Of a DNA stretch of 64,000 nt, positions 3,596 to 64,000 are shown one piece after another. Both the position numbers and the translations under genes were made by a program. This DNA is from Ipomoea triloba. Taxonomy: Eukaryota; Streptophyta; Magnoliopsida; Solanales; Convolvulaceae. The notes below the pieces were generated by a model. It did no database searches, had not been told where the DNA came from, and was given only the letters and a program-made list of their open reading frames with translations. The DNA is taken from the NCBI RefSeq assembly GCF_003576645.1, contig NC_044916.1, forward strand, positions 13,136,135-13,200,134, given 5' to 3'. Each line of letters starts with the position of its first letter. Positions within the stretch are counted from its first letter, which is position 1.

Positions 3596-4009
3596 GTGAC
3601 AATGGATTTTCCTTACTTAGCCGTCGTGCTAACTACACTTCATTGTGTCCTTTATCAGATGGAATTTAGTGTGGGCTCATACAGCCCAGCGGACTCTGAT
3701 CCATCGGAGTTCGAGTTCCCGGTCCTAGATTACGAAGATTACGCCCAGTACATACTTGATGGTGACCCGTACGCACCCGGCTATGCACCAGATCCTCCTG
3801 TGCTGACTTGTACTCCCGATCCTATTCCCACTGCTGTCTCACCAGCGGAACCGGTTTGGTCTCCGGCTCCTGTCAAACCGTTGTGTCCTTTTGACGTCAT
3901 CCAGGCTAGTTATGGGTTTTATCCCATAGAGGTCCTACCCGATAGCGATCCTCTCGAGTTCGTTGTCCACTATTCTTACCCGTGGGATCCGAGTCCCCCA
4001 GACTATCAC
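3596..4009 (+). pseudogene. ORF inside element-2 LTR, 5' copy, interrupted by element 1
   Basis: The 5' LTR version of the 177-codon ORF seen whole at 22467-23000. It reads 138 codons and is then cut by insertion of element 1 after ...SPPDYH; the remaining codons continue at 13171-13337. The product is rich in Pro, Asp and Tyr (for example DYEDYAQYILDGDPYAPGY), with a short hydrophobic N terminus. No known domain is recognised. By my reading it differs from the 3' LTR copy at about nine positions, about seven of which change an amino acid. Confidence 0.45.
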
Positions 4010-6616: not shown

Positions 6617-6883
6617 CTGTGTTGAGGTCTAAGTAGGAATCCTAGGGTTATGATCTGAGACTCTAGGACTTGATCAGTAGAAGTTAAGATGTTTAAGAGT
6701 TCTAAGATGTGTGAATTTTAGGCTGCGCGGTGAGGACTCGTTTACTTGCTTTTGTTTATGCTTTGCCGGTTGTTTGTTGTTTGCTTGCTGTGAGCTCGTT
6801 CTCACTTGCTTTCTTGCATGTTTGGTTTAGACCGACCGCAGTGTTCTCTTCGCCTTCTGTTAGTATTCTCCCTCTTCTGCATC

Positions 6884-9800: not shown

Positions 9801-10633
9801 GCACGAGATTAAAGATGAGTACAGCTTTTCATCCTGCCACTGACGGACAGACTGAGCGTACCATACAGACTTTGGAGGATATGCTGAGGGCTTGCATGCT
9901 TGATTTGCAAGGGTCGTGGGAAGAGCATCTCGATTTGATTGAATTCTCCTACAACAACAGTTATCACTCCAGTATTCAGATGGCCCCGTATGAGGCGCTC
10001 TATGGGCAAAAGTGCAGAAGTCCGTTGTGTTGGGAAGACTTGGTGGATCCAGTAACCTTGGGACCCCAATATCTGCAAGAAGCCACCGAGAAAGTCAAGC
10101 TGATTCAAAGTAGAATGAAAGCCGCTCAAAACCGCCAGAAATCCTATGCTGATCTGGGAAGGAAATTCGTGGAATTCCAGGCAGGCGAAAAGGTGTGGTT
10201 GAAGATTTCCCCAACTCGTGGAGTAATGAGATTTGGGAAGAAAGGGAAGTTGAGCCCCCGCTTCATCGGACCTTATGAGATCTTGGAGAGGATTGGACAG
10301 GTGGCGTATCGTTTAGCCTTGCCAGCAGAGTTAGATCGAGTGCACAACGTGTTTCATGTCTCCCAGTTGAAGAAGTACGTGCACGACGCCTCGCATGTGT
10401 TAGCTCCCGACACGTTAGAGTTGGACGAGGCGCTGTCTTATGAAGAGAAGCCCGTGAGGATCTTGGACTCCAAGACGCGCGAGACCCGGCGCAAGGCAAT
10501 CAAGCTAGTGAAGGTGCTTTGGTCCAACCATGGAGTCGAGGAGGCAACTTGGGAGATGGAGGACGATATGAGGCGGCGCTACCCGGCTTTGTTTGCTCTA
10601 GGTAAGTTGTTTAGTTATGTTCTTGCATGCTAG
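6884..10633 (+). CDS. Element 1 polyprotein: protease, reverse transcriptase, RNase H, integrase, chromodomain
   Basis: Open frame of 1250 codons from ATG 6884. An in-frame ATG at 6806 is possible, but the 26 codons before 6884 read like leader. About 80 residues of probable gag N terminus lead directly into the protease, so the gag core and zinc knuckle are missing. Order, numbered from 6884: aspartic protease with LFDSGAS near residue 95; reverse transcriptase with LCIDYREL near 327 and FIDDIL near 429; RNase H with YSDAS near 577; integrase with an HHCC zinc finger from about 824 and catalytic residues in MDF (about 893), SDRD (about 955) and GQTER (about 991); chromodomain in the last 70 residues (ending [10 protein letters not shown]). 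No stops or shifts. A block between RNase H and integrase is repeated at a 42-bp offset (8890-9031), adding 28 codons in frame. Expressed from the LTR if at all. Confidence 0.92.
8890..9031 (+). repeat. Two overlapping 42-bp direct duplications inside pol
   Basis: A 42-bp block at 8890 recurs at 8932, and a second 42-bp block at 8948 recurs at 8990. The protein shows the RNase H terminal motif [14 protein letters not shown] about three times, where element 2 has it once. Frame is kept because 42 is divisible by three. The same 42-bp offset occurs elsewhere in the window, so this may be an assembly artefact rather than a real change. Confidence 0.85.
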
Positions 10634-15295: not shown

Positions 15296-18050
15296 GCTCA
15301 GGCTAGTGACGCCGTAACGGGTACTTTCCCCATAAACTCAGTACTTGGATTAGTTCTATTTGATACGAGGACTACCAATTCATTTATATCCTCTGCGTTC
15401 GCTGATAAACTAAAGTTAAGGCTTACTGCTAAGTTAGATCTAAATGTCACAATGGCTTCGGGAGTAGTAGTATCCTGTAAGGAGGACTATGACGACGTTG
15501 CTATAGAGATAGCGGGGTTTAACTGCCCCGGAAACCTAATTCGTTTTGAACTTGAAGGCATCGATGTCGTACTCGGGATGGATTGGTTGGATAGGTACAA
15601 AGCTCAGATCGTGTGTAATGAGCGAAAGGTTGTCCTACAAGGACCCAAGGGAAGGAGAATATCCTACCGAGGGATTGGCAAGCAACCCGAGTCAAGGTTG
15701 TTGACGATGCAGAAATTAAAGAAGTGCGTTCCTCAGGGATGCGAAGCGTATCTCTACTTGGTGCAAGATGCCGAAGTAGAAGAAATCGAGATGGACCGAA
15801 CTCCAATTGTACGTGAATTTCCTGACGTATTCCCCGACGATCTCACTGAAATGCCACCAGAAATGGAAGTGGAATTCACCATCGATCTTGTACCAGGAAC
15901 CTCACCTATCTCAAAAGCGCCTTATCGGATGGCACCCAAAGAGATGGAGGAGCTGAAGGCGCAATTGGCAGAGTTGTTGGAAAAGGGATTTATTAGACCA
16001 AGCGTATCACCCTGGGGCGCACCAGTGTTGTTCGTAAAGAAGAAAGATGGGAGTCTTAGATTTTGCATTGACTATAGGGAACTCAATCGAGTCATAGTGA
16101 AGAACAAATACCCGTTGCCCAGGATCGATGATCTATTTGATCAGTTGAAAGGAGCGGGTGTATTCTCGAAGATTGACTTAGGGTCAGGGTATCACCAAGT
16201 TCGAGTAGCGAAAGAAGATGTGCCTAAAACGGCGTTTCGAACGAGGTACGGACACTACGAGTTCACAGTCATGCCATTCGGAGTGACAAACGCCCCAGGA
16301 ACCTTTATGGACTTGATGAACCGAATTTTCCTTCCATACCTGGACAAATTCGTCGTTGCCTTCATAGATGACATCTTGGTCTACTCTAAAACATCGGAGG
16401 AACACGAGGAACATCTCAGGATAGTGTTACAGACACTGAGGGAAAAGAAACTTTTCGCAAAGCTTTCAAAGTGCGAATTTTGGAAAAGAGAAGTCGCATT
16501 TCTTGGTCATGTGATCACCAAGGAAGGAATACGGGTGGATCCAGCCAAGATACGAGCGGTAATCGAATGGGAAGTGCCCAAATCAGTTACAGAAATCCGC
16601 GGTTTCTTAGGTTTGGTGGGTTATTACCGAAGGTTTGTTCAAGACTTCTCGAAGATAGCAAAACCACTAACGAACTTGCTCAAAAAGACGACCAAGTATA
16701 GTTGGGACGAAGAATGTGAGCAGGCGTTCCAGGAGCTTAAGAAGAGATTGACCACCGCTCCAGTGTTAACTCTACCTGTTGGAACGGAAGGTTATGAGTT
16801 GTATACTGATGCGTCTCACAAAGGACTAGGATGTGTCCTCATGAAAAATGGAAGGGTAATAGCGTATGCTTCTCGACAATTGAAAACTCATGAAGCTAAC
16901 TACCCGACACATGACTTGGAACTTGCAGCAGTGGTATTTGCTCTCAAAATTTGGCAACACTATCTCTATGGAATCTCATGCAAAATTTATACAGATCACA
17001 AGAGTTTAAAGTATATCTTCACTCAGAGGGATCTCAATTTTAGACAAAGGAGATGGCTAGAATTGATCAAAGACTATGACTTGGAAATTCAGTATCACGA
17101 GGGCAAGGCAAACAAAGTGGCTGATGCTTTGAGCCGAAAGACAAACCATGGACTCACGATTTCTATCGCGTTTTTGGGGAGCGTTACAAAGGGCAATGGG
17201 CACTCAACTCAAACTAAGTACGGCTTTTCACCCTGCCACTGATAGTCAAACGGAGCGAACAATCCAAACGTTGGAAGATATGCTCAGAGGTTGTGTGCTC
17301 GATTTCCAGGGTTCATGGGACGAACAGTTGGATTTGATAGAATTTTCCTATAACAACAGCCACCATGCGAGTATAGGAATGGCACCTTATGAGGCATTAT
17401 ATGGGCGGAAATGTCGAAGCCCTCTGTGTTGGGGCGACAAAAGTGATATCGTTACACTTGGACCTCAGTATCTCCAAGAGACTATTGAGGCAATCAAGAT
17501 AATTCAAGGGAGGATGAAAGTCGCGCAGGATCGACAAAAGTCGTACGCCGATTTGAAGCGACAATTCACCGAATATCGGGTTGGGGAGAAAGTATTACTG
17601 AAAGTCTCGCCCACTAGAGGAGTCAGGAGGTTTGGGAGGAAAGGAAAGTTGAGTCCTCGTTATATAGGACCTTACGAAATTTTGGAAAGGATAGGGAATT
17701 TAGCCTATCGACTAGCCCTACCGATTGAGCTTGATAAAGTACATAACGTATTTCACGTTTCTCAACTTAAACGGTATGTACCTGACGCATCCCATGTATT
17801 AGAACCGGAGGAACTAGAGATGGATGATTCGTTGACATACGAGGAAAGACCAATTCGAATCTTGGACTCAAAAACACGAGATACGAGGAGGAAATCAGTT
17901 AAAATGATCAAAGTCCAATGGTCGAACCACAGTCCCGAGGAAGCTACGTGGGAGTTAGAAAGAGTTATGATGGGACGTTATCCGGAATTATTTAACTCAG
18001 GTGCGTGGAACCAATCTAACTTTTATGTGCCTAAACAAAATATGTGTTAG
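15296..18050 (+). pseudogene. Element 2 pol: protease, RT, RNase H, partial integrase, chromodomain
   Basis: In frame with gag through 17242. The protease active site reads LFDTRTT, where D-T/S-G is expected, so the catalytic Gly has become Arg. The RT (FIDDIL near 16367) and RNase H (YTDAS near 16803) look whole. Near 17150 about 0.6 kb is missing compared with element 1: the integrase zinc finger and the first catalytic Asp are gone, the second motif is truncated to MDSRF, and the frame shifts. The rest (17148-18050) keeps SQTER in place of GQTER, the integrase C terminus and a complete chromodomain (YEERPIRILDSK... EEATWELE). Non-functional. Confidence 0.88.
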
Positions 18051-22466: not shown

Positions 22467-23000
22467 GTGACAATGGATTTTCCTTACTTAGCCGTCGTGC
22501 TAACTACACTTCATTGTGTCCTTTATCAGATGGAATTTAGTGTGGGCTCATACAGCCTAGCGGACTCCGATCCATCAGAGTTCGAGTTCCCGGTCCTAGA
22601 TTACGATGATTACGCCCAGTACATACTTGATGGTGACCCGTACGCACCCGGCTATGCACCAGATCCTCCTGTGCTGACTTGTATTCCCGATCATGTTCCC
22701 ACTGCTGTCTCACCAGCGGTACCGGTTTGGTCTCCGGCTCCTGTCAAACCGTTGTGTCCTTTTGACGTCATCCAGGCTAGTTATGGGTTTTATCCCATAG
22801 AGGTCCTACCCGATAGCGATCCTCTCGAGTTCGTTGTCCACTATCCTTACCCGTGGGATCCGAGTCCCCCAGACTATCACGAGGAATGGATGATGTATAT
22901 CAATACTTGCAAGTTTCTAGACCACATCACCTGGTTTGAGGGTGAGTGGCATGTCGTTTGGGGAACCTACACTGGCCCGGTGTACCACTTGTTAGACTAG
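22467..23000 (+). CDS. 177-codon ORF of unknown function inside element-2 LTR
   Basis: Open from ATG 22467 to TAG. The N terminus is mildly hydrophobic (FPYLAVVLTTLHCVLY), followed by a Pro/Asp/Tyr-rich body with several PDP-type turns, then an aromatic C terminus (FEGEWHVVWGTYTGPVYH). It has no recognised domain. It lies in sense orientation within the LTR, about 850 bp before the LTR end. An acceptor-like CTGATTGCAG lies about 80 bp upstream, so it could sit in a spliced LTR transcript. It may equally be a chance ORF. A second identical copy lies at 23944. Confidence 0.4.
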   Translation: MTMDFPYLAVVLTTLHCVLYQMEFSVGSYSLADSDPSEFEFPVLDYDDYAQYILDGDPYAPGYAPDPPVLTCIPDHVPTAVSPAVPVWSPAPVKPLCPFDVIQASYGFYPIEVLPDSDPLEFVVHYPYPWDPSPPDYHEEWMMYINTCKFLDHITWFEGEWHVVWGTYTGPVYHLLD

Positions 23001-23943: not shown

Positions 23944-24477
23944 GTGACAATGGATTTTCCTTACTTAGCCGTCGTGCTAACTACACTTCATTGTGTCCTT
24001 TATCAGATGGAATTTAGTGTGGGCTCATACAGCCTAGCGGACTCCGATCCATCAGAGTTCGAGTTCCCGGTCCTAGATTACGATGATTACGCCCAGTACA
24101 TACTTGATGGTGACCCGTACGCACCCGGCTATGCACCAGATCCTCCTGTGCTGACTTGTATTCCCGATCATGTTCCCACTGCTGTCTCACCAGCGGTACC
24201 GGTTTGGTCTCCGGCTCCTGTCAAACCGTTGTGTCCTTTTGACGTCATCCAGGCTAGTTATGGGTTTTATCCCATAGAGGTCCTACCCGATAGCGATCCT
24301 CTCGAGTTCGTTGTCCACTATCCTTACCCGTGGGATCCGAGTCCCCCAGACTATCACGAGGAATGGATGATGTATATCAATACTTGCAAGTTTCTAGACC
24401 ACATCACCTGGTTTGAGGGTGAGTGGCATGTCGTTTGGGGAACCTACACTGGCCCGGTGTACCACTTGTTAGACTAG
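23944..24477 (+). CDS. Second copy of the LTR ORF (identical, in the N-joined duplication)
   Basis: The predicted product is identical to that at 22467-23000, and so are the surroundings. Because the duplication also includes flanking DNA and is bounded by single Ns, this is probably the same locus assembled twice rather than a separate gene. Confidence 0.4.
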   Translation: MTMDFPYLAVVLTTLHCVLYQMEFSVGSYSLADSDPSEFEFPVLDYDDYAQYILDGDPYAPGYAPDPPVLTCIPDHVPTAVSPAVPVWSPAPVKPLCPFDVIQASYGFYPIEVLPDSDPLEFVVHYPYPWDPSPPDYHEEWMMYINTCKFLDHITWFEGEWHVVWGTYTGPVYHLLD

Positions 24478-29683: not shown

Positions 29684-30181
29684 ATGGAGTTTTCTTTTCT
29701 GCAGGTTTCTATTGCCATAATTGCCTTAGCCGCCATTGCCCAGCCATCTTTTGGACAGGCCGCCTGTGATTCTGATTGCATTAAAGGGTTTATTGTTGCA
29801 CATAACGCGGCCCGAGAAACGGTCGGCGCTCCACCGGTTAAGTGGAACACCACCTTAGCAGACTTTGCTGAATCCTATGCCAGCAAGAGGTCTACTGACT
29901 GTGCGGCGCAGCACTCACATGGGCCATATGGAGAAAACATCGCAATGGCTTCTGCCGAATTGTCTCCGGCGGATTCCGTGAAGTTGTGGATGGATGAGAA
30001 GAAATACTATGACCAGGCGTCGAATTCTTGCACCGGCGGAGAGTGTCACCATTATACGCAAGTGGTTTGGCATGACACCACGAGTATTGGCTGTGCTAGG
30101 GCTACGTGCAAAACTGGTTGGATGTTTGTCACCTGCAACTATTACCCTCCAGGCAACTATGTGGGCGAATGTCCATATTAA
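29684..30181 (+). CDS. PR1: Pathogenesis-related protein 1 (CAP superfamily), copy A
   Basis: Intronless, 165 codons, the usual PR-1 size. Residues 1-24 form a secretion signal (hydrophobic core, cleavage after SFG-Q), so the product is apoplastic. The CAP domain follows: AHNAARETVGAPPVKWN, GPYGENIA, HHYTQVVW and CNYYPPGN, including the conserved His/Glu/His cavity residues. PR-1 proteins bind sterols and are induced in defence. The C-terminal 11 residues (PPGNYVGECPY) match the CAPE1 peptide pattern PxGNxxxxxPY, released after CNYx. Here Cys replaces the Arg found in copy B, giving a ninth cysteine in the mature protein. It differs from copy B at about eight residues and has a TATA box at 29556. 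The start is the first ATG after a short A-rich leader. Confidence 0.95.
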   Translation: MEFSFLQVSIAIIALAAIAQPSFGQAACDSDCIKGFIVAHNAARETVGAPPVKWNTTLADFAESYASKRSTDCAAQHSHGPYGENIAMASAELSPADSVKLWMDEKKYYDQASNSCTGGECHHYTQVVWHDTTSIGCARATCKTGWMFVTCNYYPPGNYVGECPY

Positions 30182-47631: not shown

Positions 47632-48129
47632 ATGGAGTTTTCTTTTCTGCAGGTCTCTATTGCCATAATTGCCTTAGCCGCCATTGCCCAGCCATCTTTT
47701 GGACAGGTCGCCTGTGATTCTGATTGCATTAAAGGGTTTATTGCTGCACATAACGCGGCCCGAGAAACGGTCGGCGCTCCACCGGTTGAGTGGAACACCA
47801 CCTTAGCAGACTTCGCTGAATCCTATGCCACCAAGAGGTCTGCTGACTGTGCGGCACAGCACTCACAAGGGCCATATGGAGAAAACATCGCAATGGCTTC
47901 TGCCGAATTGTCTCCGGCGGATTCCGTGAAGTTGTGGATGGATGAGAAGAAATACTATGACCAGGCGTCGAATTCTTGCACCGGCGGAGAGTGCCACCAT
48001 TATACGCAGGTGGTTTGGCGTGACACCACGAGTATTGGCTGTGCTAGGGCTACGTGCAAAACTGGTTGGATGTTTGTCACCTGCAACTATTACCCTCCAG
48101 GCAACTATGTGGGCGAACGTCCATATTAA
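47632..48129 (+). CDS. PR1: Pathogenesis-related protein 1 (CAP superfamily), copy B
   Basis: Intronless, 165 codons, same architecture as copy A: signal peptide 1-24, then a secreted CAP domain with AHNAARETVGAPPVEWN, GPYGENIA, HHYTQVVW and CNYYPPGN. The C terminus PPGNYVGERPY fits the CAPE1 defence-peptide pattern with the usual Arg, so this copy looks like the ancestral form. Other changes from A include VEWN for VKWN, ATKRSAD for ASKRSTD, SQGPYG for SHGPYG and WRDTT for WHDTT. The mature protein has eight cysteines. The promoter, 5' leader and 3' flank are nearly identical to A, so both may be co-regulated by the same defence signals (inference). Confidence 0.95.
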   Translation: MEFSFLQVSIAIIALAAIAQPSFGQVACDSDCIKGFIAAHNAARETVGAPPVEWNTTLADFAESYATKRSADCAAQHSQGPYGENIAMASAELSPADSVKLWMDEKKYYDQASNSCTGGECHHYTQVVWRDTTSIGCARATCKTGWMFVTCNYYPPGNYVGERPY

Positions 48130-49928: not shown

Positions 49929-51562
49929 TGTGATGTGTAAAGTGGTGTAGTGAATTTGTGGGTTAATTATATCGTTCTCAAGGGATTGGGTTTTATGGCA
50001 TGTACTTGTATAGCAATTAAATTCTTAGGCATTAAGATGAATAAATTTAACAAGAATCCAAGCAATCATATATGAGTTGATATGTAACAAGCTATAACAG
50101 GTTCATCAAGAATTAAAAGCAATATTACAATTGGTATAAACTCTGATAATTAAAGATAGGACTCGAATTAAGGAGAATTATCTTATAGATGCAATAACAA
50201 GATTTGGGGAAAACAATTAATTTAAGAGTTCAATGAATTGCACAAAAGAATCTTTAATCTAAATTTCATTTTCATGAACTAAAGATAAAGATTAGAACAA
50301 TGATTTGCTCCACTTTCGTGACATATCAATTCCTAGTTCTTAGAGGACATAAGCAATTTAAAACCACAATGTTCTTTACTTTCGTAAATTAAATTGGGTG
50401 CATGCAAAGAGTAGCTTGATTTCAACATATAACTTCCATTATAAAATGAAATCATCCAAAGGCAAGTTAACAAATGTTACGTACCATTTACTAACAAGAT
50501 TTCAATTAAATCTATGCATACTTCAATAAACTCTTGAATTAAAGCCTTCCCCTTTATGAAATATTCATGAACTTCGCATCAATAAAGATAATCCTACCCT
50601 AATTCAAGTCCTTAATGCAACTACTCACAATTCATAATGGAATACAACAAACTAACAATATTTAAATTCATAAGCATGATAAATAAATTGTAAAGAGATA
50701 AAGGGAACAAGAAAACTTATGGATTGAAGACCAAACTCTTGGAGTTTCCTCCTACACTCTTGCTTGAAGAAAAACACAACACTAAAACTAAAATATGAAA
50801 GCTAGAATAAGAGGAATAGAAGGAATTGGTGAGGAATGGTGTTTTCTCCTGCAAGGAAGACCTCTATTTATACTTGTTCATGAGGAGGCAAAGCATGATG
50901 GGTATTGGTTGGCAAATTGCAAAAGTGAGGTGCCCACAACATGGTGTATAATGCACATGATTTGTGAAGGCACATGGAGTCCATGTTCTACCAGATCTGG
51001 AGTTTATGGCCCTAATCATAGCTGTAGATCTTTAAATCTTCTTTCCAATGCCATTTGAATCATCCCATTTGGATATTCCTATAATCAGATATGACCAAAA
51101 TACCGAGCAGTGGTCAGATTAGGATAAAATCTGGAACTTCGACTTCAAGGCTGCTTTTGACCATTTTTCGGTCAGAATTACAAATTTCGTATCTCTGGAA
51201 AAGTTGTAGCCCTTGAAGTCTTCTTTCTAATGGTTCAAGAATCATCCATCTTCTCACTTTTGTTCTTGTCCCTTCATGATTCTTTACATCTTCATGATTT
51301 TCCTGATATTTCCACAAGCAATTAAAAACATTAGGATGACTAATTAAAGATGATTATTACAAATCAAACTTAGGTTTTCTCTAAATCACCCAATTAAATG
51401 CAATATGACCTAATTTTCTTTACTTTATTCCAAATAAGGTGATTGTTGCAAACATTAATCAAAGTAAAGAAAATTAAGGTTATATTGAACACAATTTATA
51501 CATTCTAGTGGACAAATAAGGTTAAATATGGGGATTAAATATGATCAAATATGCACTTATCA
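49929..51562 (-). mobile_element. 3' LTR of the Athila/Tat-type element
   Basis: About 1.63 kb, AT-rich. On the minus strand it starts TGATAAGTGC right after the polypurine tract and ends ...ACACATCACA. The exact outer end is inferred from TG...CA, and no target duplication can be tested because the other end is outside the window. ORFs within (50795, 51522, 51715) are not credible. Confidence 0.65.
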
Positions 51563-51576
51563 ACTCCCCCACACTT
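51563..51576 (-). other. Polypurine tract
   Basis: AAGTGTGGGGGAGT directly before the LTR start. A second very similar tract (AAGTGTGGGGGAGAGG) lies upstream at 52923-52938, beside an ACATCGAGGGCGATGT inverted repeat. It is possibly a relic of an internal duplication. Confidence 0.75.
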
Positions 51577-53159
51577 AAACTTTTGTTTGTCCTCAAACAA
51601 AAACAGACAATAAATTGCAAATCATGGCATCGAAATTGTCGAAACTCCCTCATTGCACAACCTATCAAACCACATATCCAACTTGCTATAAAACAACTTA
51701 CTACAAGAATCACCTTAGCTTGGTTCACGAGTTCCATTCCCAAGCCAATAACCAAGTACCAAAACCATTAAAGTGCGTGAGAATCTAGTGTGCACAAATG
51801 CTAAGTTGAGATTATGCAAAACTTGGCTTTTAATGAGATCCCATAGGCTTGCCCTTCTTACTCCCACTAGATTGATCATTGAAATGCATGAAATGATCAA
51901 ATAGGTCTTTTATTAGGCTTATAATGGGGCTAAGGGTGTATGGCTAACAAAGAAGGGGTAAAGAAAATAAACAAAAGAGAGAATTTCACACTTATTCACA
52001 ATTTGGTCTAGAAGAGATAGGGAAACTATGAATAAAGGAGAAATTTATAATTTAGAACAAGCAACACTCTAATGTAGTGGGGTTGAGTATAACCTTCAAA
52101 AATAAAATTCACACTTTTATTCCAATTCTCTTTTTTTTTTCTTTTTTTTTTCTTTTTTTTTTCGTCATTCATTTTTTTTATATATATATATATATATTTT
52201 TTTTTTCGTTTTTCTGAACATCATCTTTTTCATTTTCTTGATTTTTCAAATTAACCAACAAACTTATTGTCAAGACCCCCATACTTTGACAAAATTATCA
52301 AGAGGATTGCTAACAACCTAGCTTCATTAAAGATCTCTTCCATGAAAAAAAGAATAAATGCTCTATTCTCTCAGAGGTGGAGGAAAACATTTTGGCTAAG
52401 GTTAAGGGTTAAATGACAAGGGTTAATACAATAAAAACAAACACAATGAATGATTTAAGTGCTTAGCACTTATTGAACAAAAACAAGGCTCAACGGGGAC
52501 AACTAGGGGTAAACTCATGTGTAAAAGGTAGGCTTAAAGGCTTGGGCTAAACAAAAATGGCCTAAATCATTTCAAAACATGCAAATCTTAGATTTCACTA
52601 GGAGAGTAATGAGGCAAGTTCTAGCAAAACAACCATTACCGGAATCTCACATAAGCCTTCACTAGCAGTGCACAACACACTAGATCAAGAATTGATTCAA
52701 TTATTAAGTGGCTAACAAGGCTATTGGCAAGAGAATAGATCAATCATGTAACCCCTTGGCTCATCAATCACAAGTTGAGTTGCAACAAGTTCCACCAAAA
52801 CAAACCACAAACCAACAAAGAGGGAGCGATCTCAACTTCTAGCAAAGAAAAGCAATTTATTCACACAAAAAGCACATGAGTTATTCAAGCAAAAATTTTG
52901 AAAATTACCTCAATTTTTGTCCTCTCCCCCACACTTAAAAATTTACATCGCCCTCGATGTATAATGCAAATAGGATTTGACAAGATTGAGTGCACACAAA
53001 ACTAGAAGAAAAAAAAAAACTCCAAATATAATTGATAAAACATATGAAATGCAAATGGAGAAAGATTGTACTCCCTTATGATTCTCGTGCAGCAACAAGA
53101 GTAGAGAAGTCCACTAGTTCTACACATCTTTTAGCCTTCCTGTTAAAAATAAGTGAAGT
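51577..53159 (-). other. Long 3' untranslated region of the Athila/Tat-type element
   Basis: No ORF of note. It contains a T-rich microsatellite (52127-52210, T runs with C and an AT run) and the second polypurine-like tract at 52923-52938. Its text resembles 3' regions of Athila/Tat elements, which supports the RWP-RK ORF lying inside the element. Confidence 0.6.
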
Positions 53160-54152
53160 TTAAAACATTTCATCTTCCCACGGAACACGAGATGAATTGG
53201 CAAAGGAAGTAGAGTGAGCAAGATTTATCAATTGTTGATATCTTTTCTTTTTAGAAGAAGATTCCCCCAGTGTTTGAGTTTCTAAGCCTAACTCATTGTT
53301 GGGGTTTGCTAACATCTGCTCACTTTCGTGTTCTAGCTCAATCACCTTCTCCCCTTGGTCAAAATCTTTCTTAAACTTGCTCAACAGTCGATCCATGTAC
53401 TGTAATTTCCTATGTGGCCATTGATTGATTCCCAACTCGGTGCATATTTTCTTCAGCTTGTCTTTTCCTATGTGTAATTCCCTTGCCGCCTGGACAACTG
53501 GTAAGTGGAAGAACTTTGAAATCATTTCAATGCTCCAAGATTTTTCAGAGGTGCTCTTCTTATCCACAATGGTTATGACTGGGTTGGATGCTTCTTCTAT
53601 AATTTCCTCAGTTGCAACCTCATTGATTTCTTTTACTTTTGGTACCTCATCCTTGAAATTCCAGATAGAATCAAATTCTTGGCCAAAACTGCGAATGTGT
53701 TCATCGCTCGAGGATCTTGAAGCTTCACCTACGGGAGCCAAAGTGCATTCCTCATACTGATAATCCCAGAGGGAGTTCTCAGTAATGGAATGGTTATACT
53801 GGTAAGGAGGAGGAGTAGAAATTTCCAGGTTATCCTCCAACCTTAAGAATTTTTTCTGCGGCCATTCGGAAATCCCTAACTCCCTGCACCTAAGCTTTTT
53901 CGAAAATATCCTTTTCTCCTCTTTTTCTTTCCTCTGAAATGCTACCTCCCTTGAAGGTTCAATTTCAGCAACAACCTCAGCTCTAACAGTTGGTTGATTG
54001 AGTTCATGAAACTCATTCTCAAAATCATAGAGAGGAGTTAGATTCATCTCATCCCAAATTGAGGTATCATCAAAATCAGAACAATAAATGAATTGAGAAT
54101 AAAAAGAGGATGAAGCATGATTCGTCATTTGATTAGAAAGATTAAATAGCAA
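53160..54152 (-). CDS. RWP-RK domain protein (RKD-like) encoded within the retrotransposon
   Basis: Intact 330-codon ORF, no intron. Residues about 204-256 form an RWP-RK domain: SIEMISKFFHLPVVQAAREL, then LKKICTELGINQWPHRKLQ. This matches the family signature FHxPxxxAAxxLxxxxxxLKKxCRxxGIxRWPxRK, except that Gln replaces the first Arg (QWPHRK) and Thr replaces Arg in KICTEL. A second, partial motif lies at 84-109 (KKLRCRELGISEWPQKKF): the domain's C-terminal half without its N-terminal helix. Between them lies an acidic Ser/Glu-rich linker; the C terminus is Lys/Ser then acidic (WEDEMF). RKD proteins are nuclear DNA-binding regulators of egg-cell and embryo identity. The ORF starts 320 bp after the integrase stop, same strand, upstream of the polypurine tract: the extra/env-like ORF position. 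The alternatives are a host retrogene between TE pieces, or a spliced host gene. ATG 54152 is the first in frame; Met9 is also possible. Confidence 0.82.
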   Translation of the reverse strand: MLFNLSNQMTNHASSSFYSQFIYCSDFDDTSIWDEMNLTPLYDFENEFHELNQPTVRAEVVAEIEPSREVAFQRKEKEEKRIFSKKLRCRELGISEWPQKKFLRLEDNLEISTPPPYQYNHSITENSLWDYQYEECTLAPVGEASRSSSDEHIRSFGQEFDSIWNFKDEVPKVKEINEVATEEIIEEASNPVITIVDKKSTSEKSWSIEMISKFFHLPVVQAARELHIGKDKLKKICTELGINQWPHRKLQYMDRLLSKFKKDFDQGEKVIELEHESEQMLANPNNELGLETQTLGESSSKKKRYQQLINLAHSTSFANSSRVPWEDEMF

Positions 54153-54471
54153 GGAATCACATCAATGAAGAAGAATGAGAAAGTAAGCAGAGGTTGGGGA
54201 AAAACAACAAGCTAAGTCAAGAATTCTTATCAGAAGAAAGAAAAGACAATTTTAAAGGATAAAGAACAGGACATACTAACCTGAGAGCTGAACACCAATC
54301 TCGATTTCCGGGGCTTGCTGAGCACTAACGAATGGCTTTTGTAAAAAGAGCGATAGTACAATGTCTGCCATTATTGAAACTAGAAAAATTAAATCAACAA
54401 ATTAAAAATCACATCAAATAAAATCTTGGGTTGCCTCCCAAGAAGCGCTTGTGAGCTCGACCCCTGATTCT
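54153..54471 (-). other. Spacer between integrase and RWP-RK ORF
   Basis: AT-rich. Contains CTTGGGTTGCCTCCCAAG next to the integrase stop (near 54426-54443), a phrase I associate with this group of gypsy elements. It is a near-palindrome that could form a hairpin. No gene. Confidence 0.5.
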
Positions 54472-55685
54472 TTATTCATATATGGGCTGGAAGAGGTCCC
54501 AAACTGCCTTGGCCTCGTTCCTCTCTGCTTCCTGCTCCTTGAATGCCTCATTAAACAGTTTCAATCTTTGCCCATTAACCACAAATGTTTTTCCCTCCTT
54601 GTTGGAAATTGCAACTGCTCCTGAGGGAAAATGCTCTTCCACTTGAAATGGTCCTGACCACCTTGATTTTAATTTACCTGGGAACAACTTGAGTCTTGAG
54701 TTGTAGAGTAGAACTTGGTCTCCAGGTTCAAAGTATCTCCTCAAAATCCTTTTATCATGAAAATACTTGGTCCTCTCTTTGTAGATCCTAGCATTCTCAT
54801 AGGCATCCATCCGGAATTCTTCAAGCTCATTCAAACACATCAACCTCTTTTCTCTTGCCAAATCCTCATTCAGATTCAATCTTGCCACTGCCCAATATGC
54901 CTTGTGTTCATACTCAACCAGCAAATGACATGATTTTCCAAAGACGAGTTTGAATGGTGAGACACCAATAGGGGTCTTGTAGGCAGTTCTCAGAGCCCAT
55001 AGTGCATCATCTAGCTTTAAAGACCAATCTTTTCTTGTTGGACTCACTACCTTTTCAAGGATTGACTTGATCTCCCTATTTGCCAACTCGACTTGTCCGC
55101 AAGTTTGAGAATGGTATGGCGTAGAAAGTCGGTGATGAATGCCATACTTGAGAAGAATCCTTTCCAAGAGTTTGTTACAAAAATGCTTGCCATTGTCAGT
55201 GATGAAGGCTCTTGGCATTCCAAACCTGGAAAAAATGTTATTCTTAACAAATTTCAACACTGTCTTTGAATCATTCCTTGGGGTTGCAACAGCTTCCACC
55301 CATTTAGACACATAATCCACAGCTACAAGGATATACTCATTCCCAAATGACCTTGGAAATGGACCCATGAAGTCCATTCCCCATACATCAAAGAGTTCCA
55401 CTTCGAGTATACCTTTCTGAGGCATTTCATGTTTCCTATTGATAGTGCCAGTCCTTTGACAATTGTTGCACTTGCTCACAAATTCCCTTGCAGTAGCAAA
55501 CAAGGTAGGCCAAAATAGTCCAGATTGTAGGACTTTTAGAGCTGTGCGATCGGCACTCATGTGTCCACCATAAGGAGAGGAATGGCAATGGCTCAAGACA
55601 CTTATGAATTCCTCTTCTGGTATGCATCTTCTTATAATCCCATCTGCACATCTTTTGAACAACAGTGGCTCATCCCAAAAGTAAT
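54472..55685 (-). pseudogene. Integrase region of Athila/Tat-type pol, 5' truncated
   Basis: About 404 codons of uninterrupted pol C terminus. It begins mid-protein at [16 protein letters not shown], because the element-4 LTR is joined at 55686. It has an HHCC zinc finger ([10 protein letters not shown] then CNNCQRTG), catalytic motifs [17 protein letters not shown] and GQVELAN (D, D, E), and the C-terminal SH3-like part [20 protein letters not shown] ending [13 protein letters not shown]. No chromodomain, as expected for Athila/Tat. The frame has no stops, so the host element was young when interrupted. The first codons of the open frame (55686-55758) come from the inserted LTR and are not part of this protein. 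Confidence 0.9.
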
Positions 55686-56099
55686 TGTGACACCCCAACC
55701 TTACACAAGCTGAGATAGATAAAAACTCAACACAACAGCTGACTATCTCAACCAACAACAGAACATAGCGGAAGCGAATTTAAAACCTAAGGGCGTCATG
55801 CCACATCTAGGTAAGATAACACGGCCTAGATGCATAGGCTAACCATAAAAACTGAACTGTATAAACGATAATCCTTAAGTCAAGTCTCAAAACATCCAAA
55901 CACTAGTCAAGAGTTTATAAAGAAATCTCAAATGGCTCACAGGCCAAAGCATAAATCTAAAAACATAACCACTATCTAAGCCTCCTCATACGGGTGTATC
56001 TCTATCGCGCTCACGCATAGACTTTAAGGCAAACCTGGAAAACACACAAAGAACCATTAGCAAAAGACTGCTAAGTAACCACCATTCACACCCGCAAGG

Positions 56100-56420
56100 N
56101 NNNNNNNNNNNNNNNNNNNNNNNNNNNNNNNNNNNNNNNNNNNNNNNNNNNNNNNNNNNNNNNNNNNNNNNNNNNNNNNNNNNNNNNNNNNNNNNNNNNN
56201 NNNNNNNNNNNNNNNNNNNNNNNNNNNNNNNNNNNNNNNNNNNNNNNNNNNNNNNNNNNNNNNNNNNNNNNNNNNNNNNNNNNNNNNNNNNNNNNNNNNN
56301 NNNNNNNNNNNNNNNNNNNNNNNNNNNNNNNNNNNNNNNNNNNNNNNNNNNNNNNNNNNNNNNNNNNNNNNNNNNNNNNNNNNNNNNNNNNNNNNNNNNN
56401 NNNNNNNNNNNNNNNNNNNN
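56100..56420. other. Assembly gap (N)
   Basis: 321 N within the element 4 LTR. Comparison with 63779-64000 shows that the missing part starts with the same LTR text. Confidence 0.98.
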
Positions 56421-57429
56421 ACATACAATAGTAGCACAGCTAGTTCACCCAACAACCTCCAAAAGATACCAAGGAACCACCACATCATACTCATACCCAA
56501 CTCAGCCCAAGAACCATCACTCAGAGTGCTCATCTCAGATATGAACACCAACCAACTCCCAAATAACAAAATCAAGGATTCAACCAACCAAATAACAGAC
56601 TCATATCGTGGACTAAGAGGTATGAATAAATATTCAGAATCAAGGTAACATATTCAATAGAATACTCTAACAAACTTAGAACGAAAGGGGAAACCAACCA
56701 CGGATCACTCACCAATCACTACCACCTTACTCTCACGGAAAACCCCAGCGGTTACATTGTCCCACTAGAGAACCCCGCAAGAGCAATTCCCACATACCGA
56801 ATCAGACTCAGCTCAGAATACAAAGAGATACTCCAGAATACAAAGATCATATCACAATACACCAATATTCATCTAACAGAGGCCAAATAACATGGAAATC
56901 CAAACCAACAAAGCTCATATACATCAATAAACAAAGGATCAAGACACAAGTCTATGAATCCAACCAACGAAATCAATAATAGGCTAATAACCAAGGATAT
57001 TCAGGATTTCCAATCACCAAATAATATCATATAGAGCGAGAGTGTAGAAAATAGATTTTGATGGACATAGTGGTTACCTTTGAAGCGTATTTAATTCCGA
57101 AAGCATACTAACTTTACTCATAAGCTAGGTCCAAAGCAACACCAAACTCAAAGCTCGGTTCATAACCACGAACCTGAAGATTAATATAACCTAATACCAT
57201 TACTATGACTATAAATAACGATATTGATATTCCTAATCGGTTCATTATAACCTATAATCCATGCTCAAGGCTAATGTAATATGACCATGTGAATTATACT
57301 TAATCTAATTACTAACTAATACTAAAACAAGGATATGATCAATACTAGTCTAAACTCAAGCTAAGATATAATATTATAACTACACTAAACTAAAAGCTTA
57401 ACATTAAACCAAAATGTTACCTTAAACTG

Positions 57430-57495
57430 TCTAGCCTCGGATTCGAACTCACTACCTCCGGCTCACACGCAAGCACCATACCGCCACGCTATTCC
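57430..57495 (-). mobile_element. Possible SINE head (tRNA-like A and B boxes)
   Basis: On the minus strand TAGCGTGGCGGTATGGTGC (A-box-like) is followed about 25-30 bp later by GAGTTCGAATCC (B box consensus). Spacing and wording are like tRNA-derived plant SINEs. No poly-A/T tail or target duplication was found. It is within the element 4 LTR. Confidence 0.35.
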
Positions 57496-58607
57496 ATCTC
57501 TTCTGTTACGCTGCGAGACTACAGAACCAAGCCTCCTTCCTTGCACCTACGGTTAACATGAGCGGAGGAGAGAGCCCGTTGCTGTTGTTCCGTTCGTTGG
57601 ACGGCTCTGTTTCACGGAGCTTCTAGCACCGCCACCGGCTACCGCCAAGACCACCATGGATCAGTTGCCGTCGCCATTGCCGAGAACAGGGGAGGCACCG
57701 GTTGCTCTGCTTAGTTGGTTCACGTCGACGGGGAGACGTTGCTGAACTCCGCTGCTGCCGCCGCTCAACACGGTCGAGAAGACGGGGGAGACCGCAAGCT
57801 ACCGCTGGAGTCCGTCTATAACGTCGCTGTTGGAGAATAGAGGAAGCGACCGCCATCGCCGAGCCCGTCGCTGACCACCATTGGTACGGTTCTGCCCGTT
57901 GCCGCCGATGATGGAGAGTCTGAGTCGTCAACGTCACCGGAGCTGCTCACCGCCGACGTCTCCCTCTGTTGCTGCTGCGATTCTCCCACGCCGCTTCGCC
58001 GGTGACCTTCATTGTGGGTGCAAGCGGTCGGCCGAAAAGAGAGAGACGAGAGGTGTAGAGAATTAACGAAAACAGAGATGAAGGAACGTGGATGGCTGCT
58101 GATGACTAAACTTAGGTTACCCTATTTGGAAGTTTCCTTTTTGGGCTAGGTTTCCTCTTTGGGTTTGGCTAGATCATAATTAGAAGGTTGGGTCAAAGTG
58201 ATCATAATATAATTATTGGACTTAGGGTAGTTTATTGGGTCCATACAAAAATAATATAGTATGGGCTATTTAGAGAAGTTGGGTCAATAACCATAGCTTA
58301 TAATACATATATATATATATATATATACATAATTATGGGCTTATAATATAACCTTAAGAAAAGATAAAATATGTTGGCTCAAAAATGTTTATGTGGGAAA
58401 TATATATATATATATCTATAGAGATATTGGGCTATAGACTATTATTATTAATTATAACAATAAACTATATACAAGAGTGTATAATCCCGAGCCCATAGGA
58501 AATAATGTTACTTATAATTATTTAAGTAATTACTTAATAATAAATAACCCCTCATTTTAAATATTTATATTTAAAAATACTAATAGGGAAAATGCGGGGT
58601 GTTACAG

Positions 58608-58632
58608 NNNNNNNNNNNNNNNNNNNNNNNNN
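58608..58632. other. Assembly gap (25 N)
   Basis: Joins the element 4 LTR start to an interior copy in the wrong orientation for a simple element. A likely misjoin. Confidence 0.95.
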
Positions 58633-60613
58633 GAAGATGCCAATCGAATAAATAAAGGACTTTCGTAGAACCCTGAACGATCAAAAGAGCAAGAATTCTT
58701 AATGCTAAAGAAGATGCACGCGTTACGTCGGCTTTAGGACTCGATGTTTCAAAGTACAAGAAAGTAAACCCGGTTTTCAAGATCACCAGTAATCATAGGC
58801 GAATCTCCTTTCAAGATCAGGGCGATACTCCCTAGTTGAACCTACTTTTCATGAAGCTTCCTCAGAATCCCTCGTTCTGCACCAATCAGTCTTTAGCAAT
58901 CCATCGCCTTCGACTTCTCCTGGGGTGGCAAAGGTTGTGCGTGTCGTACCTTACGAAGTAGAGCTTATCCGAACTGTAGACCCACGTTGCGTAGGAAGCA
59001 AGGTCAAGATCCGTCAATCGGTCAGAGTATCAGGTCAAATCGTCAAGCTGTGGAAACCGCTTAGAGTTGAGAAACTCCTTATTCCTCTTAAATCTGAATT
59101 CCTCTTTCATCTTTGAAATCCCAATTACCTTTTGTTGAAAAATCCCTTCTATATGTTCTAATCATTATTCATACATCTCTTGGGGAAACTAAATTTCTCT
59201 TTGTTTCTTGAAACTCTAAATGCCTTCTTGTCGAAACACCCCTTCTACCTATTCTAAATCTCCTTCTCATTTTCGCTTGGAACCGAATTCCTCTTTTCCC
59301 TTGAGAAAGTGCATACCCTATCGTTAAAGAATCCTTCCTATCTTCCCAGATCTCATTGCTATCATCCTTGAAACCGAATTTCTCTCATTCCCTTGGAAGA
59401 TTGTTCATCCCTTCGTTCAGACAACCTTTCAGTTTATTTTAAATCTCGTTCTTATCTCCTTTCAAGATTGAATTTCTTTCTTACCTTGAAGAGCTGAATA
59501 CCTTATCATTGACAAACCGTTTCGGTCTTTCGAGACCTTATTCCTAATCCCTTTTGGAATCTAATTTCTTTCTTTTCCTTGAATAAGCCAAATACCCTAT
59601 CGTTGGAAGACTCTTCCTATGTTTTCAATCTTGTGCTTATCTGTTCTCGAAGCCAAGTTCTGTTCATTCCTTCTCTTTTATTAAGGAACTTGACATTAAG
59701 CAATCATTCCCATTCTCTCAAACGTTGTTCTTGTTTGCTTCTTGAAAATAATTCTGTGCAAGGTGGCGACCTTATTTCCTAAGTCGTAACCTTGATAACC
59801 CTTGATTCTATTCTTAACCTACGTTGTTTTTGAATCTTGAACCATTAAGCCTTTCATTCCTTTTTTTCCGTTGGGTCAAAATTTTCTAACCGGGCATTAT
59901 ATATGATATATTGTTTTCTATATATATACTACCATACTAGTTTAACTCTCTGTCCCCAAAACGATTTTCTGAGCTTCGGGGACGAAGCTCCTTTTAAGGG
60001 GGGTAGAGCTATCCCTTCGTTCAGACAACCTTTCAGTTTATTTTAAATCTCGTTCTTATCTCCTTTCAAGATTGAATTTCTTTCTTACCTTGAAGAGCTG
60101 AATACCTTATCATTGACAAACCGTTTCGGTCTTTCGAGACCTTATTCCTAATCCCTTTTGGAATCTAATTTCTTTCTTTTCCTTGAATAAGCCAAATACC
60201 CTATCGTTGGAAGACTCTTCCTATGTTTTCAATCTTGTGCTTATCTGTTCTCGAAGCCAAGTTCTGTTCATTCCTTCTCTTTTATTAAGGAACTTGACAT
60301 TAAGCAATCATTCCCATTCTCTCAAACGTTGTTCTTGTTTGCTTCTTGAAAATAATTCTGTGCAAGGTGGCGACCTTATTTCCTAAGTCGTAACCTTGAT
60401 AACCCTTGATTCTATTCTTAACCTACGTTGTTTTTGAATCTTGAACCATTAAGCCTTTCATTCCTTTTTTTTCCGTTGGGTCAAAATTTTCTAACCGGGC
60501 ATATATATGATATATTGTTTTCTATATATATACTACCATACTAGTTTTAACTCTCTGTCCCCAAAACGATTTTCTGAGCTTCGGGGACGAAGCTCCTTTT
60601 AAGGGGGGTAGAG
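58633..60613 (+). repeat. Element 4 interior, plus-strand arm of an inverted repeat, with a 604-bp tandem duplication
   Basis: Equals the reverse complement of 60829-62207, apart from a second copy of 604 bp (59407-60010 repeated at 60011-60613). The content is itself a degenerate tandem array with a period near 90 bp (units starting GAATTTCTTTC or GAATTCCTCTT, each with CTATCGTT-like and CTTATC words). It ends in the element 1 polypurine tract, but GGGTCACTTG follows instead of an LTR. The 67-codon ORF seen three times is just this repeat. Confidence 0.85.
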
Positions 60614-60828
60614 GGGTCACTTGATTTACCAAATCTTCCCAACTGAACGAGCTGCTACACTTCTTTTCTTTAACCTTTTGTCAGCTTAGGCGAACTCCAT
60701 TTTCTTGAAAGGTCCAACTCAGAACCATTCCATAAGGATAATTCGTATTGGGGACAGAAGGTTAAATAACCCCTCATTTTAAATATTTATATCTAAAAAT
60801 ACTAATAGGGAAAATGCGGGGTGTTACA
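60614..60828. other. Centre of the inverted repeat: 150-bp spacer plus LTR-start fragment
   Basis: 60614-60763 is unplaced sequence. 60764-60828, read on the minus strand, is the first 65 bp of the element 4 LTR (same as 58606-58544), correctly joined to the polypurine tract at 60829. Confidence 0.75.
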
Positions 60829-63270
60829 CTCTACCCCCCTTAAAAGGAGCTTCGTCCCCGAAGCTCAGAAAATCGTTTTGGGGACAGAGAGTTAAAACTA
60901 GTATGGTAGTATATATATAGAAAACAATATATCATATATATGCCCGGTTAGAAAATTTTGACCCAACGGAAAAAAAAGGAATGAAAGGCTTAATGGTTCA
61001 AGATTCAAAAACAACGTAGGTTAAGAATAGAATCAAGGGTTATCAAGGTTACGACTTAGGAAATAAGGTCGCCACCTTGCACAGAATTATTTTCAAGAAG
61101 CAAACAAGAACAACGTTTGAGAGAATGGGAATGATTGCTTAATGTCAAGTTCCTTAATAAAAGAGAAGGAATGAACAGAACTTGGCTTCGAGAACAGATA
61201 AGCACAAGATTGAAAACATAGGAAGAGTCTTCCAACGATAGGGTATTTGGCTTATTCAAGGAAAAGAAAGAAATTAGATTCCAAAAGGGATTAGGAATAA
61301 GGTCTCGAAAGACCGAAACGGTTTGTCAATGATAAGGTATTCAGCTCTTCAAGGTAAGAAAGAAATTCAATCTTGAAAGGAGGTAAGAATGAGACTTAAG
61401 ATAAACTGAAGGGACGTCTCAACGAAAGGATATACAATTTCCAAGGGAACGAGAGAAATTCGGTTTCAAGGGACGATAGCAATGAGATCTGGGAAGATAG
61501 GAAGGATTCTTTAACGATAGGGTATGCACTTTCTCAAGGGAAAAGAGGAATTCGGTTCCAAGCGAAAATGAGAAGGAGATTTAGAATAGGTAGAAGGGGT
61601 GTTTCGACAAGAAGGCATTTAGAGTTTCAAGAAACAAAGAGAATTTAGTTTCCCACAAGAGATGTGAATAATGATTAGAACATATAGAAGGGATTTCTCA
61701 ACAAAAGGATAATTGGGATTTCAAGGATGAAAGAGGAATTCAGATTTAAGAGGAATAAGGAGTTTCTCAACTCTAAGCGGTTTCCACAGCTTGACGATTT
61801 GACCATGATACTCTGACCGATTGACGGATCTTGACCTTGCTTCCTACGCAACGTGGGTCTACAGTTCGGATAAGCTCTACTTCGTAAGGTACGACACGCA
61901 CAACCTTTGCCACCCCAGGAGAAGTCGAAGGCGATGGATTGCTAAAGACTGATTGGTGCAGAACGAGGGATTCCTGAGGAAGCTTCATGAAAAGGTAGGT
62001 TCAACTAGGGAGGTATCGCCTGATCTTGAAAGGAGATTCGCCTATGATTACTGGTGATCTTGAAAACCAGGTTTACTTTCTTGTACTTTGAAACATCGAG
62101 GTCCTAAAGCCGACGTAACGCGTGCATCTTCTTTAGCATTAAGAATTCTTGCTCTTTTGATCGTTCAGGGTTCTACGAGAAGTCCTTTATTTATTCGATT
62201 GGCAATCTTCGTTGTAAGGTGGTTCGGTCAAATCTTGGTGTTCTTCTTGCGATTCTTGCAGGTCAATAGCACGAACACATATCAACCTATTTTTCCACTC
62301 TTCATTGGTTCTTCTTGTTGGTCATCCAAAGTAGTGGAACGCAGCTCTCAACTTTAATCTTTGTGTTTAGCGCGATCAAGGCGCCTTTGCTTACTTGCTC
62401 GGTAGATTAAGTCTTCTACGGAACTCCATTAGCACTACGGGCCAACTCCACTTTGGAAAATTCGGGGATTGAGCTAGCCTTTAGGTTCACTTCGGTTGGT
62501 CTTGATATGCGGTTGATTCGGTCGTTTACTACCTTGCTTAGTTTATTCCTTTATTTATTTCTTGCCACCGAGGTTCCTTCCTTTTTATTCCTTTATTTAT
62601 TTCTTGCCACCGAGGTTCCTTCCTTAGAGTGCTTGCACAAGACTCCTTATGGCCGACCTGAAAGCTCCTACTTGGCGTGCTTTAACTCTTCCTTGACGCG
62701 TCGGCATTTGCTCGTGCCGATCCCTCATAGCCGAGAGTCTTCGAGTCTTCAGTCTTCGAGCTCCTATTGCTTTCTTCGTCTTCTTATCGCACTTCAGCTG
62801 CACGAACTTGGTCTTCAAGTCTTGAGGTGAACGAAGATCTTGCCGACGACGCTTCACACGTGAAGACGCCATTCCCGAAGAACGTAGATTGCTGTCGATG
62901 ACTCCAAGCTGCGAGTGGATTAGTCTTCTTTGACGAGCCGCCCGATCTTCTGATTGCTTAGACGCATACGGTGCTATCCATCGTTCCGCATCAACTAACT
63001 ACTTATTCCTAATCTAAGGCAGGCTCCTAGGCAAAACTAAAACGAAGCAACTTAACTAAAAGCGATTAACAACTTACCCGGAAGACGAGCCGCAAGCTGC
63101 AAACAACGAGGTTAACAAGGCACAAACAATATAAACAAACAAGGCGTGTCCTCACCGCGCATCCTAGAATTCACACAATCCTAGGATTCTCAAACTCCTT
63201 AATTGCTACTGATCAAGTCCTAGAGTCTCAAAAGTTCAACCCTAGGATCTCTACTCAGACCTCAACACAG
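60829..63270 (-). repeat. Element 4 interior, minus-strand arm plus leader
   Basis: Non-coding. 60829-62207 mirrors the other arm. 62208-63270 is C/T-rich leader with no credible ORF, and its last 150 bp (63120-63270) resembles the element 1 leader at 6616-6760. A 42-bp duplication lies at 62542/62584. Confidence 0.75.
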
Positions 63271-63282
63271 GCTCTGATACCA
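63271..63282 (-). other. Primer binding site (initiator tRNA-Met), element 4
   Basis: GCTCTGATACCA on the plus strand, i.e. TGGTATCAGAGC on the minus, two bases from the LTR end at 63285. Confidence 0.9.
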
Positions 63283-63284
63283 AC

Positions 63285-64000
63285 TGTGACACCCCAANTC
63301 CCTTACAAGAATAAATTCAATTAATTGGGCTCTTGATTAGAATAATCAAATTAGGCTCAAGAATTGTGACACCCCAACCTTACACAAGCTGAGATAGATA
63401 AAAACTCAACACAACAGCTGACTATCTCAACCAACAACAGAACATAGCGGAAGGATTAAAAACCTAAAGGGGTATCATGCCACATCTAGGTAAGATAACA
63501 CGGCCTAGATGCACAGGCTAACCATAAAAACTGAACTGTATAAACGATAATCCTTAAGTCAAGTCTCAAAACATCCAAACACTAGTCAAGAGTTTATAAA
63601 GAAATCTCAAATGGCTCACAGGCCAAAGCATAAATCTAAAAACATAACCACTATCTAAGCCTCCTCATACGGGTGTATCTCTATCGCGCTCACGCATAGA
63701 CTTTAAGGCAAACCTGGAAAACACACAAAGAACCATTAGCAAAAGACTGCTAAGTAACCACCATTCACACCCGCAAGGAAGTATAGATATACATATAAGT
63801 TGTAAATAGGTTTACACACCCATATAGAATATAAACACCAACAAACTGTTCAATAGTTCAAAATGGATACTCAACAACAATAAACTGAACGAATCATAAA
63901 CCAAGACTCAACCAAAGGGTCCAATATCCAATAACGAGAGTACAATACAACGAATCCATAAACTAGATACCAACTGAACAACAATCATAAGGAAACCAAC
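63285..64000 (-). mobile_element. Element 4, 5' LTR end (chimeric joint)
   Basis: 63285-63297 is the LTR end. An N at 63298 follows, then 63299-63364, which is a piece of the first part of an element-1-type LTR (matches about 4127-4193 reversed), then the LTR end again from 63365 to the window edge, equal to 55686-56099 and beyond. Either an LTR inserted in an LTR, or a misjoin at the N. Confidence 0.7.

Follow-up and report, generated by a model that had tools for sequence, protein, structure and literature searches.

An RKD-like RWP-RK reading frame as the probable 3' cargo of a Ty3-type retrotransposon of Ipomoea

The stretch of DNA analyzed here (the window) comprises 64,000 nucleotides of Ipomoea triloba contig NC_044916.1, positions 13,136,135 to 13,200,134 of the forward strand, and contains an intronless open reading frame (ORF) for an RWP-RK protein directly behind the integrase of a Ty3-type retrotransposon. 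The ORF occupies positions 53160 to 54128 of the minus strand and has 322 codons from its first ATG at 54128, or 330 codons if the TTG at 54152 is the start. When compared to Pfam, it was matched by RWP-RK (PF02042) in two stretches with an E value of 8.9e-22 and 77.2 bits against a cut-off of 29.3, and this was the only family listed for it at an E value of up to 1. The GAF and PB1 domains, which are markers of NLP proteins, were absent from the listing. The longest ATG-started ORF in dinucleotide shuffles of 51580 to 55683 had 201 codons, and none of the 500 shuffles reached 322 codons, which rules out a chance origin. The preliminary description of this locus, in which the ORF was called intact, is confirmed. 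The same description spoke of a clear RWP-RK domain, and to this a correction applies. Using a profile built from 12 single-domain RKD-type matches, we assigned a complete second domain to residues 196 to 253 (53370 to 53543, minus strand) and a 21-residue remnant of the first domain to residues 78 to 98 (53835 to 53897, minus strand), with coordinates derived from the residue numbers in both cases. The RWPxRK motif is intact in neither, reading QWPHRK in the second domain and EWPQKK in the remnant, and because of this alteration we term the ORF RKD-like or RKD-derived rather than RKD.

A confident fold prediction gave the second domain a helix-turn-helix with long helices behind it. No RWP-RK structure was present among the Foldseek matches of the ORF when the list was re-inspected, and 1v5n, the sole and weak sequence match among solved structures (E value of 0.51), was judged to be unrelated. 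The product has no transmembrane segment, since the highest Kyte-Doolittle value among its 304 windows of 19 residues was 0.7 and none reached 1.6, and an env-like membrane protein is ruled out as its identity by this profile. A collection of viral contigs yielded 8 pattern matches and no relative among them.

Upstream of the ORF on the minus strand lies a Ty3-type integrase (54472 to 55685), in which Pfam matched both H2C2 and the rve core and in which DFMG, TDNGKHF, and VELANREIK occur in order. A strict H-C...C-C zinc-finger pattern gave no match in this integrase, whereas the Pfam H2C2 model did. No Chromo domain was matched by Pfam behind the integrase at an E value of up to 1, which fits the Athila lineage; we also take the integrase and its linker to be Athila-like. 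The ORF follows on the integrase strand, as first described, with a gap of 319 bp (54153 to 54471, minus strand) that holds the acceptor-like sequence TTTTTCTAG (54380 to 54388) and the donor-like sequence CAG/GTTAGT (54275 to 54283). On the 3' side of the ORF, no further ORF of at least 100 amino acids is listed before the polypurine tract AAGTGTGGGGGAG (51564 to 51576, minus strand), which immediately precedes the start of a 3' long terminal repeat (LTR; 49930 to 51562, minus strand). The LTR begins with TGATAAGTGC at 51562, and its TATAAATA box at 50872 is position 691 of the sequence that starts with this TG, as an LTR would have it. The untranslated stretch, polypurine tract, and LTR noted earlier behind the ORF were all recovered, and an integrase with H2C2 and rve combined with a polypurine tract and TG start points to a Ty3/gypsy LTR retrotransposon. 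The earlier suggestion that the ORF fills the slot of an extra or env-like gene holds for its sense position between integrase and 3' LTR and fails for env likeness, as the product lacks a transmembrane segment.

Of the element, the window contains just the 3' part because a nested insertion (55683 to 64000, no strand assigned) cuts pol at approximately 55683. The likeness to integrases breaks off there, where the sequence repeated at 63362 begins, and the open frame continues to 55758 within the insert. The insertion carries direct repeats at 55683 to 56090 and 63362 to 63769, and its far end lies at or beyond the window edge. The remainder of the element, its 5' LTR and primer-binding site included, should be located beyond the window, and in its present state the copy seen here is probably not autonomous. 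The low-coordinate end of the 3' LTR is only an estimate because the 64-kb window holds no second LTR copy. A second copy of the polypurine tract-like 13-mer AAGTGTGGGGGAG is found at 52924 to 52936 of the minus strand, 1.36 kb inside the element, and may mark a former boundary or serve as an additional priming site.

At an E value of 1e-3, 11 of 1028 candidate proteins were homologous to the ORF, every one of them from Ipomoea. Eight clusters (P0002 to P0009, with 20 member sequences) were 79 to 99% identical to the ORF, and P0010 to P0012 were 34 to 36% identical. Near-identical homologues occurred on four I. triloba contigs, of 38.1, 23.7, 33.4, and 27.2 Mb, and in I. batatas gene models, under the database names RKD2-like, RKD1-like, or RKD5-like. 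All 322 residues were matched without a missing stretch by three of the eight clusters (P0002, P0003, and P0004); P0005 begins later, P0006, P0007, and P0008 have internal gaps, and P0009 is truncated at either end, through either decay or an effect of annotation. The second domain of the window ORF was identical in three of the four I. triloba clusters (P0002, P0005, and P0008). By profile comparison, the related Ipomoea proteins P0011, P0015, P0016, P0017, and P0019 keep two long RWP-RK domain matches, and other RKD-like families of Ipomoea also occur in several copies. In P0011, an I. batatas RKD1 model, residues 30 to 56 read like an antisense RWP-RK domain, with 15 of the 27 residues matching the antisense ORF of the window; its sequence suggests RKD copies arranged head to head.

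Two of the I. batatas models link the ORF to the retrotransposon. P0003 and P0009 both start with approximately 90 to 99 non-RKD-like residues ahead of the ORF part, and when residues 1 to 100 of P0003 were used as a query, 4 of 29 candidates matched: P0003, P0009, P0013, and P0014. The latter two carry the name nucleotidyltransferase/Ribonuclease H and had no named Pfam family, and the window integrase was identical to them at 196 of 201 (P0013) and 202 of 206 (P0014) residues. The first stretch of P0009 has 96 of 99 residues in common with P0013. This pol-type stretch is absent from the window and presumably lies between protease and reverse transcriptase, judging by the motif ELKPLPP. Two stretches of the gap between integrase and ORF recur in the same models: P0009 contains SAQQSPEIEIGVQFS, the window counterpart of which, SAQQAPEIEIGVQLS, sits in the gap, and P0003 contains FSPTSAYFLILLH, drawn from the same gap. 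The order of pol-type segment, integrase, gap, and ORF thus appears to be repeated in I. batatas, as read from protein models, which may not mirror real splicing. Because P0003 and P0009 share the pol-type segment with the integrase-bearing P0013 and P0014, we consider the ORF to be multicopy cargo and not a chance neighbor, and it is very probable on these sequence grounds that it belongs to an LTR retrotransposon as an extra sense ORF in the 3' slot.

We also asked where the domain came from. A profile of six Ipomoea proteins retrieved 43 of 5951 candidates at an E value of 10 or less, 17 of them from Ipomoea, and a domain tree was built with 48 rows and 60 columns, few columns for this number of rows. 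In this comparison against RKDs, which had been suggested at the outset, the second domains of the element ORFs formed one group (support, 99/98), and together with those of Ipomoea RKD1 and RKD1-like proteins they made up a 14-row group (95/91) apart from the domains of other plants. Because its domain branches within this Ipomoea-only group of two-domain RKD-like proteins, we conclude that the ORF came from the host, the source most likely being, by sequence, an Ipomoea two-domain RKD-like gene. The branch to the element group measures 0.41 changes per column, and some of this length may predate the capture. Loss of the first domain up to an exon junction was tried as an explanation for the remnant and ruled out, since the loss stops approximately 2 residues before the guessed junction.

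Taken together, these results lead us to propose, with moderate confidence, that, in an Athila-like Ty3 family of Ipomoea, a host RKD-type gene has been captured and now forms an additional sense ORF located after pol and ahead of the 3' LTR, and that its product acts in reproductive cells. Sequence and protein-level support covers the domain, the slot, the several copies, the shared pol segment, and the Ipomoea origin. The capture most likely predates the separation of the I. triloba and I. batatas copies and took place when the element acquired a copy of the mRNA of a two-domain RKD-like gene of Ipomoea; the ORF then multiplied along with the element. An mRNA template would explain why the ORF has no intron. 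For the Ipomoea paralogues, exon junctions could be estimated only from stretches skipped in protein models P0010, P0012, and P0018, so that this route is inferred. By analogy with the env-like genes of some plant elements, expression of the ORF would probably rely on transcription from the 5' LTR and splicing of the message. Because its second domain is predicted to form a helix-turn-helix and long helices, we read the product as a nuclear DNA-binding protein, which would most likely tune transcription of the element, or compete with host RKDs, in reproductive cells; a role in egg or embryo and a benefit in the germline are inferred. Binding sites in the LTR were looked for with the motif GACYCTT, which occurred 0 times on both strands of the LTR (49930 to 51562) versus 0.26 times expected by shuffling, a weak test.

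Several results weigh against a functional product, and they are what a useless passenger would predict, that is, an RKD-like gene captured without benefit to the element and now drifting, its frame open because the copies are young. The first domain is down to 21 residues and RWP has become QWP. The window ORF differs from P0003 at 22 of 320 residues and from P0004 at 28 of 320, and the window integrase differs from P0013 at 5 of 201 and from P0014 at 4 of 206, so that the ORF diverges faster than the integrase (Fisher p values of 0.04 and 0.001), a rough comparison given that the two rates were taken from different copies. The DNA-binding domain shows no extra conservation, with 3 of 58 residues changed inside it versus 19 of 262 outside (P0003) and 5 of 58 versus 23 of 262 (P0004), and the comparisons of window and I. 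batatas residues did not reveal strong purifying selection within the family. Internal stretches are missing from P0006, P0007, and P0008, and the pol of the window copy is split. Against drift stand a frame that stays open over its full length, both in the window and in models from I. triloba and I. batatas (P0002, P0003, and P0004), the second domain shared with the window by three of four I. triloba clusters, and a domain that is still recognizable and confidently predicted to fold despite its long branch, part of which may be older than the capture. We give the passenger explanation a chance only slightly short of even and regard any retained function of the ORF as less likely than not. 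Of the earlier claim that the element captured or evolved a regulator of germline identity, cargo and host origin stand at the protein level, whereas the first domain, motif, and rate speak against a strong functional claim, and the suggested favoring of transposition in egg cells or embryos is a hypothesis.

Two other explanations were weighed. The ORF could be one of many recent host RKD2-like duplicates that by chance ended up next to a decayed integrase and an LTR, and the database labels of its relatives as RKD2-like, RKD1-like, and RKD5-like genes, the further multicopy RKD-like families in Ipomoea, and the fact that linkage in other copies was read from protein models and not genomic DNA are all in line with this. 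Such a coincidence is nonetheless very unlikely, given that the ORF is on the integrase strand 319 bp behind the integrase with a polypurine tract and LTR start downstream, and that two I. batatas models fuse it to the pol-type segment that others fuse to the same integrase, with gap pieces in window order. It is also quite unlikely that the protein is a decoy, which in its truncated form would have lost gene activation and would use its C-terminal helices to pair with host RKDs, dampening in the germline either what these RKDs do or the silencing imposed by the host. The confident prediction of the second domain and long helices alongside a lost first domain and an altered motif would suit a decoy, but that these helices mediate pairing is assumed, and no link connects host RKDs with the silencing of this element.

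Elsewhere in the window, two near-identical CAP/PR-1-type genes lie approximately 18 kb apart on the plus strand (29684 to 30181 and 47632 to 48129), with 157 of 165 residues identical and a Pfam CAP match on the second. Two further Ty3 pols are present on the plus strand at 6806 to 10633, as one 1275-amino-acid ORF, and at 15452 to 18050; their C-terminal chromodomain matches were weak and below the Pfam cut-off. Three very similar GTG-started ORFs occur on the plus strand at 3596 to 4024, which is shorter and has no Pfam family, 22467 to 23000, and 23944 to 24477. Within the nested insertion, the segment from 58663 to 62178 is densely packed with repeats, both inverted and direct, among them 604-bp arms that are 99% complementary, and represents either a fold-back element or an assembly artifact.

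Extra ORFs behind pol are common in plant Ty3 elements, and recognizable host regulators among them are few. If our proposal is true, a germline-type transcription factor in this slot would make the idea of elements steering their own expression into reproductive cells testable by expression and DNA-binding assays. Furthermore, a set of genes annotated as RKD2-like in sweet potato and I. triloba probably represent transposon ORFs, and studies of apomixis or embryos should leave them out of their host RKD counts.

Known systems resemble the Ipomoea element in part; what follows refers to the accessible parts of the papers cited. The sense env-like 3' ORFs of Athila and Bagy2 share its slot between pol and the 3' LTR, and the Bagy2 env message is reported to be spliced, while the Ipomoea gap has splice-like signals (PMC7264820); their counterpart in Ipomoea is an RWP-RK protein without a transmembrane segment. 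TRP28 of Retand (PMC11963269) and GENE23 of maize Grande (PMC7264820) likewise lie between pol and the 3' LTR as extra ORFs, and their products are nuclear or predicted to bind DNA, but they are antisense, their domain is unrelated, and neither is a recognized host transcription factor; RWP had 0 occurrences in the main texts of both papers. A screen of plant Ty3/gypsy elements in 121 angiosperm genomes listed 15 extra domains, among them B3 in Aegilops tauschii, a YgdH/LONELY GUY type in Citrus, and an AlkB type in Phalaenopsis (PMC9289625). These too are host-type domains fixed in a Ty3/gypsy family, and B3 is also a DNA-binding domain of plant transcription factors, but RWP-RK is unnamed in the main text of that screen (0 occurrences). 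The preliminary claim that no RWP-RK retrotransposon had been described needs qualifying, since a 2023 study of pearl millet counted RWP-RK genes that overlap, and are encompassed by, intact LTR elements and dated these elements (PMC10011142). The genes are thought to have multiplied with the elements, which its authors read as expansion of a gene family for heat tolerance. Pearl millet thus shares RWP-RK genes within LTR retrotransposons but is a grass, and counts and ages are given there without an ORF slot behind integrase. No other RWP-RK-carrying element was found beyond this study and a comment on it (PMC10442032) in literature that did not include supplements or most subscription papers. 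It is conceivable, although unlikely, that LTR retrotransposons of these unrelated plants independently took up RWP-RK gamete or embryo regulators and employ them as trans-activators to set the timing of element transcription to the egg cell or zygote, in what would be a plant parallel to the transactivator genes of retroviruses. Compared to plant RKD proteins, the Ipomoea ORF also has RWP-RK as its sole Pfam domain and has Ipomoea RKD-like proteins as its closest relatives, but it differs in its truncated first domain, changed motif, lack of an intron, and location in an element. As far as our literature searches reach, the kind of cargo is already known, and the Ipomoea lineage, the slot, and the host origin are new.
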